Source: Bacteroidales bacterium (lineage in GTDB: Bacteria; Bacteroidota; Bacteroidia; Bacteroidales; UBA932). Taken from it: a stretch of 64,000 bases of DNA. How positions within the stretch are numbered: position 1 is the first letter of the stretch; every line of letters begins with the position of its first letter. Made by a program: the position numbers and the translations under genes. The notes beneath the pieces are model-generated. The model was not told where the DNA came from. It worked only from the letters and a program-made list of their open reading frames with translations, and searched no databases. Shown here in pieces: positions 34,693-37,337 of this stretch. The stretch is from NCBI GenBank assembly GCA_009777095.1, contig WRMN01000001.1, forward strand, positions 178,909 through 242,908. The letters run 5' to 3'.

Positions 34693-34766
34693 CGGGGTGT
34701 GGCGCAGTTGGCTAGCGCACCTGCTTTGGGAGCAGGGGGTCCTCCGTTCGAGTCGGAGTACCCCGA
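34693..34766 (+). tRNA. tRNA-Pro (anticodon TGG)
   Basis: CGGGGTG...TACCCCG acceptor stem, CCTGC-TTTGGGA-GCAGG anticodon arm, CTCCG-TTCGAGT-CGGAG T arm. Confidence 0.95.
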
Positions 34767-34825
34767 CAAGGGTTTACAGATTTACAAATAGGGTTGCTTT
34801 TTCCAAGCGTACCTTTTCATTTTAT

Positions 34826-35776
34826 TCATTGAAAAAAAAGCGCTACTCCGGCTACGCACAGCGCTGCTCCCACCACCTCAACGGCTGTGGGCAGTTTTTT
34901 ATGCATAATAGCATGGGGAATGAGTATCAAAATAGGAACGGTGGCCATAATCGTAGAGGCAATGCCTGTATTGGTGCGCTGCACAGCTAAGAGCGACAAG
35001 GTAACTCCCAGGAAAGGGCCGAAAAAAGCGCCGCCGAAAGAAGCCCACATTCCTTTTTTATTTTTCACGGCTGCGTATAATTGTCGCTTGCGTCCGCTGA
35101 GATAGATAATCAGCGTGAATCCGATAATGCCGGTTACAATGCGTATTTGTGTTGCGGCAAGCGGAATGTAAACAGGAAAAAATTCCTGACTGCCTATACT
35201 TGCTTCATAGGACTGCATGCCTTTTTTGCTGAGTACAATACCAAGTCCTTGCCCCAATGCGCCGCCCATAGCTATTAACATGCCGCGCAGAGGCAGGCGG
35301 AGATGCACGCCCTTTTCTTTGTTTCGTTTAAATACGGAAATTGCAATCCCCGTAAGGGTAATTACCATGCCGAGCAGGCCTAAGGAGCCCATGCGCTCGT
35401 CTAATATCAAAAATCCGGAAAGGGCGGCTAAGGGTGGAGCTAGAGTCATGAAGAGTTGGGAAAAGCGGGCGGTAATCAGGGTATAGGAATAGAACAGGCA
35501 CAGGTCGCCGAAAACGAATCCTACAAGCCCCGATAGTGACAGCCAGAACCAGGTAGCGCTGTCGGCCTTTTGAGGGAAGGCGCTGCCGGTGAAAAAGAAA
35601 AGTGCAAAGCCAATCAAAAGAATAGCAAATACCAAGCGAATCAAGTTGAGTTGTAACGAGCCTATTCGATTACTTGCATACTCAAAGAAAAGCGCTGTGC
35701 AAGTCCACGAACAGGCTACAAAAATGGCTATAATTTCACCGTGATAATTCAATTTTATTAGATTTTGAAAGTTCAA
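34826..35776 (-). CDS. EamA/DMT-family transporter
   Basis: Ten-TM pattern, two repeats, SGLVGFVFGDLCLFYSYTLI. Confidence 0.85.
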   Translation of the reverse strand: MNFQNLIKLNYHGEIIAIFVACSWTCTALFFEYASNRIGSLQLNLIRLVFAILLIGFALFFFTGSAFPQKADSATWFWLSLSGLVGFVFGDLCLFYSYTLITARFSQLFMTLAPPLAALSGFLILDERMGSLGLLGMVITLTGIAISVFKRNKEKGVHLRLPLRGMLIAMGGALGQGLGIVLSKKGMQSYEASIGSQEFFPVYIPLAATQIRIVTGIIGFTLIIYLSGRKRQLYAAVKNKKGMWASFGGAFFGPFLGVTLSLLAVQRTNTGIASTIMATVPILILIPHAIMHKKLPTAVEVVGAALCVAGVALFFQ

Positions 35777-35797
35777 AGGTAGTAAAAATGTACAATT

Positions 35798-35829
35798 TTT
35801 GCATTCTTTCGTAAAAATGCTTAGCTTTG
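35798..35829 (+). promoter_or_regulatory. Promoter of the mgtE leader (TTTG-N20-TAGCTTTG)
   Basis: TTTG 35798..35801 and TAGCTTTG 35822..35829, matching Bacteroidetes consensus spacing. Confidence 0.7.
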
Positions 35830-35852
35830 CACAAATTTTAACATCTATTTAT

Positions 35853-35906
35853 ATGGACGAAGACCCTTATAGTCAGCTGAAAATTAAATTAATAACTTTA
35901 CTGTAA
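35853..35906 (+). CDS. Putative 17-aa leader peptide of mgtE
   Basis: ATG GAC GAA GAC CCT TAT AGT CAG CTG AAA ATT AAA TTA ATA ACT TTA CTG TAA = MDEDPYSQLKIKLITLL*, directly downstream of the promoter. Confidence 0.6.
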   Translation: MDEDPYSQLKIKLITLL

Positions 35907-35946
35907 GGGTTACAGGCAGCTCCTTACGGTATAAATGTGTAAGGAG
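35863..35946 (+). promoter_or_regulatory. Attenuator-like leader RNA controlling access to the mgtE Shine-Dalgarno
   Basis: Segment 1 35863..35872 pairs with 2 35901..35910 (10 bp incl. one GU); segment 3 35920..35927 pairs with 4 35939..35946 (8 bp, includes AAGGAG); alternative 2:3 pairing 35903..35909 with 35921..35927. Confidence 0.7.
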
Positions 35947-35951
35947 GTTGC

Positions 35952-37337
35952 ATGATGAATGATATCAACACGTATTTTCAAGAACTTATTGAAAACAAAA
36001 AATGGAAAGCGCTTAGGTTAGAGGTGCTTAATTTAGAGCCGTTTCAGGTAGCTGAGGTTATAGAAAACCTGTCGGAAGAAGAACAAATTATTCTGTACCG
36101 TGTGCTGCCGCGGGAATTAGCCAAAGAAACGTTCAAACACCTTTCTTCCGATGATCAGGAGCATATTATAGAAAGCTTGGCGAATAATGTAAAAAAGATT
36201 ACCGATCTTTTGAATGATTTGGACCCTGACGACCGTACCGCTTTTTTTGAAGAACTGCCGGGAGAGGTAAGTCAGCGTTTAATTCAATTGTTATCGCATG
36301 AGGAGCGGGAGATAGCCCGCCGCCTGTTGGGATACCCCGAAGACAGCATCGGCCGTTTGATGACGCCCGAATATGTGGCCATCAAACCGCACTATACAGT
36401 GCAGCAGGCATTAGAGCACATTCGTAAGTTTGGGCGCGATTCCGAGACCCTCAATGTGATTTATATTGTGGATAACCGTTGGAACCTGATTGATGACATA
36501 CGCATCAAAGAATTAATATTGGCACAACCCGAGCAACGGATTTCGGAAATTACCGATAACCGTTTTATTGCCCTGAATGCTTATGACGACCAGGAAGTAG
36601 CAGTAAAGGCCTTTATGGACAACGGGCGGGTGGCCTTGCCGGTAGTGGGCTACGACGGCACTTTATTGGGAATAGTTACAGTTGATGACGTGATGGACGT
36701 TGCAGAAGAAGAAAGCACCGAAGACTTCCAAAAATTCGGCGGTACAGAAGGTCTAGACTTATCATATACCAAAACTTCATTATTGGAGATGATAAAAAAG
36801 CGTTCAGGTTGGTTGGTCATTCTTTTCTTGGGAGAAATGTTAACAGCCTCGGCTATGGGGCATTTCGACGAAGAAATCGCCAAGGCGGTGGTGCTGGCCC
36901 TGTTTGTTCCCTTGATTATATCAAGCGGAGGAAATTCCGGTTCGCAGGCTGCCAGTTTGATTATCCGTTCCTTAGCTTTGGGCGAATTAACTGTCAAAAA
37001 CTGGTGGTATGTGATGAAAAAAGAAATCTTCTCCGGTTTAGCTCTGGGAGCTATTTTAGGAATTATAGGCTTTATCCGCATATTAGTATGGCAGGAAGCC
37101 GGTTTTTACGACTATGGCGAATTTTGGCCCTGGGTGGGAATAAGCGTAGCTGTATCGCTGGTCTTTGTTGTGTTATGGGGTACCTTGTCGGGCTCTATGA
37201 TTCCTTTCATTTTAAAAAGAATGAAGATGGATCCTGCCACAGCCTCAGCGCCCTTTGTAGCCACCTTGGTTGATGTTACCGGATTAATTATCTATTTTAC
37301 GATTGCCGCTCTGTTTTTGACCGGAAAACTGTTGTAA
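35952..37337 (+). CDS. mgtE: Magnesium transporter MgtE
   Basis: MgtE N-domain, tandem CBS region (RLMTPEYVAIKPHYTVQQAL, VDDVMDVAEEE), TM region GGNSGSQAASLIIRSLALGE; true start may be 35955. Confidence 0.96.
   Translation: MMNDINTYFQELIENKKWKALRLEVLNLEPFQVAEVIENLSEEEQIILYRVLPRELAKETFKHLSSDDQEHIIESLANNVKKITDLLNDLDPDDRTAFFEELPGEVSQRLIQLLSHEEREIARRLLGYPEDSIGRLMTPEYVAIKPHYTVQQALEHIRKFGRDSETLNVIYIVDNRWNLIDDIRIKELILAQPEQRISEITDNRFIALNAYDDQEVAVKAFMDNGRVALPVVGYDGTLLGIVTVDDVMDVAEEESTEDFQKFGGTEGLDLSYTKTSLLEMIKKRSGWLVILFLGEMLTASAMGHFDEEIAKAVVLALFVPLIISSGGNSGSQAASLIIRSLALGELTVKNWWYVMKKEIFSGLALGAILGIIGFIRILVWQEAGFYDYGEFWPWVGISVAVSLVFVVLWGTLSGSMIPFILKRMKMDPATASAPFVATLVDVTGLIIYFTIAALFLTGKLL

Follow-up and report, generated by a model that had tools for sequence, protein, structure and literature searches.

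A candidate leader-peptide attenuator upstream of mgtE and other Mg2+ transporter genes in Bacteroidota

The 64,000-nucleotide stretch of Bacteroidales DNA analysed here, referred to below as the window, carries an mgtE gene whose product matches the Mg2+ transporter model TIGR00400 above its cut-off. The gene is preceded by a short open reading frame and by four RNA segments with alternating complementarity (Table 1). The ORF of 17 codons that a first-pass annotation of this DNA had reported was recovered where it had been placed and encodes the peptide that had been given for it. A tRNA-Pro gene (anticodon TGG) is located at positions 34693-34767 of the window, approximately 1.1 kb upstream of the leader, and this proximity is probably a coincidence.

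Table 1. Features of the mgtE leader region, in positions of the window.
Feature	Start	End	Strand	Description
-7 promoter box, Bacteroidota type	35822	35829	+	TAGCTTTG (TAnnTTTG); leader ATG 23 nt later
Leader ORF	35853	35906	+	17 codons, MDEDPYSQLKIKLITLL followed by a stop; stop codon 35904-35906
Segment 1 (codons 4-7)	35863	35872	+	ACCCTTATAG; pairs with 35901-35910, 10 bp
Segment 2	35899	35910	+	35901-35910 (CTGTAAGGGT) pairs with segment 1; 35899-35908 pairs with segment 3; includes the leader stop
Segment 3	35920	35931	+	35922-35931 pairs with segment 2 (ON); 35920-35927 (CTCCTTAC) pairs with segment 4 (OFF)
Segment 4	35939	35946	+	GTAAGGAG; carries the SD-like AAGGAG (35941-35946) of mgtE
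mgtE, Mg2+ transporter	35955	37337	+	461 codons if counted from 35952; TIGR00400, Pfam MgtE, MgtE_N, CBS

The good promoter that had been claimed upstream of the leader is present as a promoter box of the Bacteroidota type TAnnTTTG and not as the sigma-70 consensus, a scan for which found no promoter on the leader strand. Of 68 leaders, 48 have such a box in the 60 nt that precede their ATG, compared with 5.9% of background windows. Scanning positions 35300-36500 for intrinsic terminators revealed no terminator-like site, so attenuation of the trp/his type, with a terminator formed by 3:4, is not what is seen at this locus. Of the two possible starts of mgtE, 35952 and 35955, the second is the more probable, since it alone is retained in most relatives; it lies 8 nt after AAGGAG. 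The annotation had regarded a strong Shine-Dalgarno (SD) sequence as atypical for Bacteroidetes, and an SD-like motif was indeed found in only 2 of the 42 ORFs of at least 200 aa in the window, gene starts being approximate. Ribosomes of Bacteroidia are reported to ignore SDs, with the tail of the 16S rRNA sequestered (PMC9976891). The AAGGAG may be kept for the 3:4 pairing, for initiation, or for both, and hiding the start region would work whichever role this motif has.

The beginning of the leader peptide is strongly conserved. Among 71 distinct leaders of relatives, residue 3 is Asp or Glu in every case and 70 have Pro at position 5; residue 2 is Asp or Glu in 61 leaders and Lys or Asn in the other 10, and residue 6 is Tyr in 50. 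The acidic-proline start that had drawn attention to this ORF, MDEDP in the window, is thus kept family-wide as M-D/E-D/E-x-P. Codons 3 and 5 show no variation in their first two bases and 1.5-1.7 bits of it in the third. No run of codons for one sensed amino acid is conserved in the 71 leader peptides. Across relatives the ORF measures 10-21 codons and ends in differing frames, and the C-terminal half of the peptide varies in both sequence and frame. Despite this variation, the first stop in frame 0 is found at segment 2 (-10 to +7 nt of CTGTAA) in 59 of the 60 alignable leaders, as against only 15/60 and 7/60 for the control frames +1 and +2, and the stop codon sits on the 5′ edge of segment 2. 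Of all the evidence, this placement in frame 0 alone points most clearly to a role for translating the ORF as far as its stop.

The pairings 1:2 and 3:4 proposed from the window were both present, and 2:3 had been given in the correct register with too short a length, since it comprises 10 pairs (one G-U) and not 7. In the window the duplex energies of 1:2, 2:3 and 3:4 are nearly balanced (-13.0, -12.2 and -13.3 kcal/mol), and 2:3 and 3:4 are mutually exclusive because both use segment 3. Folding of the window leader beats all of 200 dinucleotide shuffles (z -3.65), and conservation across the related sequences is the stronger argument against chance. In 38 leaders, 95.2% of the cells in helix 2:3 are paired and 6 of its 10 pairs show changes in both partners; the corresponding figures for helix 3:4 are 96.5% and 4 of 9. 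When partners were slid as a control, pairing fell to 39-59%. Complementarity within sequences was better than in 5000 of 5000 permutations for each of 1:2, 2:3 and 3:4, and for 1:2 the fit to its own sequence reached this level in two separate leader sets; the permutations keep the kinship between sequences, so these figures are not exact probabilities and the safeguard lies in the controls with slid partners and in the independent set. In that set, 30 further leaders that were unused in model building, z was -4.7 for 1:2, -9.2 for 2:3 and -6.7 for 3:4, the helices 1:2 and 3:4 lying outside the model altogether. The covariation by which the annotation had suggested checking its pairings is therefore seen for 2:3 and 3:4, and all three helices are supported in the 30 independent leaders. 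It had also held that loss of the ORF frame or of the pairings in relatives would speak against its proposal; such loss was looked for and did not emerge.

Helix 1:2 differs from the other two in its distribution. It is strong in the window, is not universal in the family, and is weak or missing in the MDDIP clade; its competition with 2:3 is clear in the window and not family-wide. Its covariation signal falls partly beyond segment 2, and the best 1:2 helices use between 0 and 10 of the bases around CTGTAAGG. A loop-compatible, pseudoknot-like 1:2 acting as competitor throughout the family was considered and rejected on these grounds.

To which genes the leader belongs was assessed with a covariance model for which mgtE leaders alone had served as input. 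The model was run against 394 Bacteroidales genomes, 398 genomes from across the phylum and 7 of one family at E 0.01 per genome, a threshold at which a few chance matches are expected. Among the 37 distinct matches with a readable downstream gene, 20 precede mgtE, 16 precede corA and one precedes a P-type mgtA, and no other kind of gene was encountered. The postulated link between the leader and Mg2+ transport accordingly holds for all 37. The mgtA case comes from one genome (L129); the leader is missing from four other mgtA genes of Bacteroidales, and the corA gene of the window's own genome has none either. The sharing of one leader by three unrelated families of Mg2+ transporters supports Mg2+ as the signal. 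One genome from another class of the phylum (G808) contains two corA genes (L127 and L128), each behind a leader of the window type; the peptide of L128, MDAGPKYFNLTN, has a single early acidic residue.

Leaders of unrelated sequence but similar layout are found upstream of more distant corA genes elsewhere in Bacteroidota. Another type of corA leader in Bacteroidales (L148, L150-L158, L160, L166 and L189) has an RNA unrelated to that of the window and peptides that start MDDY, MDDP, MDDS or MDDH; complete peptides of Bacteroidales corA leaders include MDDYHPDS, MDDYHQKY, MDDYHPER and MDDPNSRTYLECINKVAVR, each ending at a stop codon, and MDDPN is also among the starts of the unrelated leaders. 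In 11 members of one Bacteroidia genus (f125 g234, at a guess Flavobacterium; L167-L171, L173, L176, L178, L181, L182 and L184) the corA leader encodes MDDYYYSLVLN or a similar peptide. A hairpin follows the stop in the MDDYH, MDDPN and MDDYYY leaders, and in many of them an alternative helix hides the corA start, a pattern obtained by inspection and single-sequence folding that should be taken as a lead without covariation statistics. The hairpin of the MDDYYY leaders starts directly at the stop. Folding without the bases that a terminating ribosome would cover instead places the corA AUG within a helix in most members, and no SD takes part. Within the Bacteroidales group the start-hiding alternative is clear in L150, L151, L155, L158 and L189 and not in the others, some of the corA starts being automatic calls that may be too early. 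The MDDYH-type leaders have the acidic residues and often lack the early Pro. Upstream of the corA genes of family f137, from another class, there is no MDD leader. Three kinds of leader that are otherwise unlike (MDExPY, MDDYH and MDDYYY) share a Tyr after the acidic start. This recurrent residue may be a nascent-chain signal of its own and not a matter of plain destabilisation.

The most plausible reading of the mgtE leader, to which we assign a probability of about 0.72, is that of a leader-peptide translational attenuator for Mg2+ import. When Mg2+ is adequate, ribosomes would finish the peptide, and the terminating ribosome would cover segment 2, whereupon 3:4 would form and the initiation site would be hidden. 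When Mg2+ is low, ribosomes would abort or hesitate on the acidic-proline start and leave segment 2 uncovered during transcription of segment 3, in which case 2:3 would form and the initiation site would stay free. The general rule would be that completed translation of the leader switches the transporter off and aborted translation switches it on. In those members where 1:2 is strong, including the window, a ribosome that is initiating or still within codons 1-5 would keep segment 1 off segment 2; such a ribosome would be required in the window because its untranslated RNA, in which 1:2 wins, would also be off. That Mg2+ is the signal and translation of the leader the sensor is something we infer from known systems.

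Folding of RNA that ends before segment 4 gave a mean P(2:3) of 0.92 with an early ribosome (above 0.5 in 43 of 43 leaders) and of 0.02 with a terminating ribosome (above 0.5 in none of the 43), the latter value following in part from the masking of segment 2, with the stop position behind it being conserved. Ribosome-free RNA of the same extent forms 2:3 in 36 of the 43 leaders, the window not among them. That an early ribosome masks segment 1, a step of the mechanism first suggested for this locus, would hence be essential where 1:2 dominates, as in the window, and would not be needed in general, since the MDDIP clade does without a strong 1:2 and naked RNA mostly forms 2:3 unaided. The early event on the acidic-proline codons is likewise retained from that suggestion, and stable pausing is given up, the event in MgtL and MgtQ being described as abortion. 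At equilibrium with ribosome footprints, most leaders favour 3:4 even when the ribosome is an early one. The mean P(SD unpaired) is then 0.19 with an early and 0.05 with a late ribosome, the window yields 0.09 in all states, and the mgtA leader L129 forms an exception to the SD staying paired. Because the SD is paired at equilibrium in most leaders, the switch would have to be kinetic, that is set during transcription, or would have to act with help.

A broader reading extends to the corA leaders of unrelated sequence. It envisages a ribosome-based Mg2+ sensor that spans the phylum independently of the enterobacteria, with Met-Asp-Asp/Glu leaders that would abort at low Mg2+ and would control MgtE, CorA and MgtA through at least three unrelated RNA scaffolds. 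We lean towards this broader reading by a little more than even odds.

The same attenuator anatomy would be expected if the leader responded to charged tRNA (Pro, Asp or Tyr), to ATP or to the general rate of translation, as proposed for mgtM and mgtP of Salmonella, leaders that respond to ATP and charged tRNA-Pro (PMC8092293). The Pro at residue 5, often with Tyr at residue 6 (50/71), could be taken in favour of such sensing, which is nevertheless unlikely: one Pro codon is conserved and not a run of them, the MDDYH and MDDYYY leaders usually have no Pro near the start and yet keep Asp-Asp, and Mg2+ transport is the trait that the targets have in common. Arrest by the nascent chain, whereby Met-Asp-Asp/Glu-x-Pro-Tyr or Met-Asp-Asp-Tyr would stably stall a ribosome that then holds segment 1, appears quite unlikely. 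It would account for the Tyr after the acidic run in three unlike kinds of leader and for the need in the window to block 1:2 before 2:3 can form, but the C-terminal half of the peptide is unconserved, unlike that of most arrest peptides, and the stall would fall only 4-6 residues from the start.

A riboswitch that binds Mg2+ directly, in which the RNA alone would fold 2:3 or 3:4 with Mg2+ and the ORF would be incidental, might equally display mutually exclusive helices and an exclusive association with Mg2+ transporters. This we hold to be very unlikely, as the ORF is evidently kept as an ORF, with its stop placed in frame 0 only and its third codon positions varying, and as corA leaders on unrelated RNA still start MDD. 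Moreover, the helices apart, no conserved ligand-like core is found, and a search of positions 35780-36000 against Rfam, at gathering as well as permissive thresholds, returned no match up to E=1, the M-box and the Mg2+ leader models included. This search had been advised by the annotation, and nine related loci gave no leader match in Rfam either.

Control could alternatively rest on the SD itself, with 3:4 weakening initiation and the strong SD being read by a ribosome subpopulation with free anti-SD (without bS21), as for rpsU. The reported failure of Bacteroidia ribosomes to recognise SDs (PMC9976891) and the conservation in leaders of a motif that is rare in the window would suit this possibility. 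It must be considered highly improbable all the same, for it leaves the conserved ORF, the stop position and helix 2:3 unexplained, none of the Bacteroidales is reported to qualify under the rpsU criteria of PMC9976891, and in another Bacteroidia genus the corA AUG is concealed by its leader with no SD present. Short ORFs are common, and a search of the 2.05-Mb genome for the leader start pattern gave two occurrences, no excess over a reversed control; a chance or non-functional upstream ORF is nevertheless refuted by the conservation of 71 leaders from many families, by covariation in independent sets and by the presence of Mg2+ transporters after 37 of 37 matches.

Among known systems, the attenuator favoured here most invites comparison with mgtQ, which is located between mgtC and mgtB in Salmonella and in which Asp2 and Glu5 together with a switch between 1:2+3:4 and 2:3 control translation of mgtB (PMC8092293). 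Both have a very short upstream ORF with acidic residues in its first five codons, Asp at position 2 and a further acidic codon by position 5, and a Pro near codon 4-5 that falls within segment 1. In both, four segments are arranged such that 1:2+3:4, with the transporter's ribosome binding site in 3:4, and 2:3 exclude each other, the former hiding that site and the latter freeing it; and an Mg2+ transporter is controlled at translation, presumably so in the present case. The leader described here belongs to another phylum, and it is a promoter-proximal 5′ leader with its own promoter box upstream of mgtE, corA or mgtA, whereas mgtQ occupies an intergenic region within an operon. It further differs from mgtQ in its ORF of 10-21 codons, in a stop fixed on segment 2, in the optional nature of 1:2, and in a host whose ribosomes are reported to ignore SDs. 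The likeness is one of layout, which has apparently evolved independently in Bacteroidota.

Control of Mg2+ transport by leader peptides that destabilise the ribosome is documented in enterobacteria (PMC11282234, PMC11552253). The mgtL leader of mgtA in E. coli and Salmonella has an acidic, proline-containing N-terminus in which EPDP causes ribosomes to drop off at low Mg2+ (PMC11282234, PMC11552253), comparable to MDEDP here, and in both cases a finished leader translation should turn the transporter off. However, mgtL operates through Rho-dependent termination of transcription (PMC11282234, PMC11552253), whereas the conserved helices of the present leader would act on the initiation site. 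The corL leader of corA in E. coli and Salmonella (PMC11552253) is similarly an ORF before corA, with leader and transporter translation inversely related, but is Rho-dependent, contains few acidic or Pro residues and has a different RNA structure. The M-box (ykoK) is also a leader RNA that controls Mg2+ transporters; it binds Mg2+ itself and is recognised by its own Rfam model, to which the present leader gives no match. An upstream ORF under M-box control is known in M. tuberculosis, in a system built on the M-box (PMC12810186). The mgtE motif of Thioalkalivibrio (PMC11109978), another predicted structured leader of mgtE, was reported from that genus only and was described as a candidate riboswitch rather than a motif with an upstream ORF.

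The open-access literature searched yielded no description of such a leader in Bacteroidota. The annotation's remark that it knew of none in this phylum is upheld within that literature; the layout itself is not new, being that of Salmonella mgtQ (PMC8092293). What is new here is the other phylum, the different RNA and peptide, the new targets, the positioned stop codon and the recurrence on several RNA scaffolds, and as far as the open-access literature shows this is the first Mg2+ leader for Bacteroidota. If this logic is confirmed, on unrelated RNA and peptides, for the three transporter families in this phylum, intrinsic destabilisation of the ribosome would be an Mg2+ sensor that has evolved widely and repeatedly, and the leader would serve to test how initiation sites with a strong SD are handled in a host whose ribosomes reportedly ignore it.

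With the MgtE protein as query, public genomes yielded 80 loci, largely of Bacteroidales and including Dysgonomonas mossii and Bacteroides reticulotermitis; going by the names of the records, many are probably from insect-gut organisms. Most of the closest mgtE loci have the same leader, which is absent upstream of some close mgtE genes (L037, L040 and L045). Within the window's own family mgtE is rare and was found among 36 genomes in that of the window, in G002 and as a fragment in G024; this scarcity suggests that mgtE and its leader may have been gained together by horizontal transfer. A leader of the window's kind is also present in a Delongbacteria record (L077). Finally, MgtE genes close to those of Bacteroidales occur in three records named as organisms of Desulfobacterota type (L042, L047 and L092), which reflects either mis-binned contigs or transfer.
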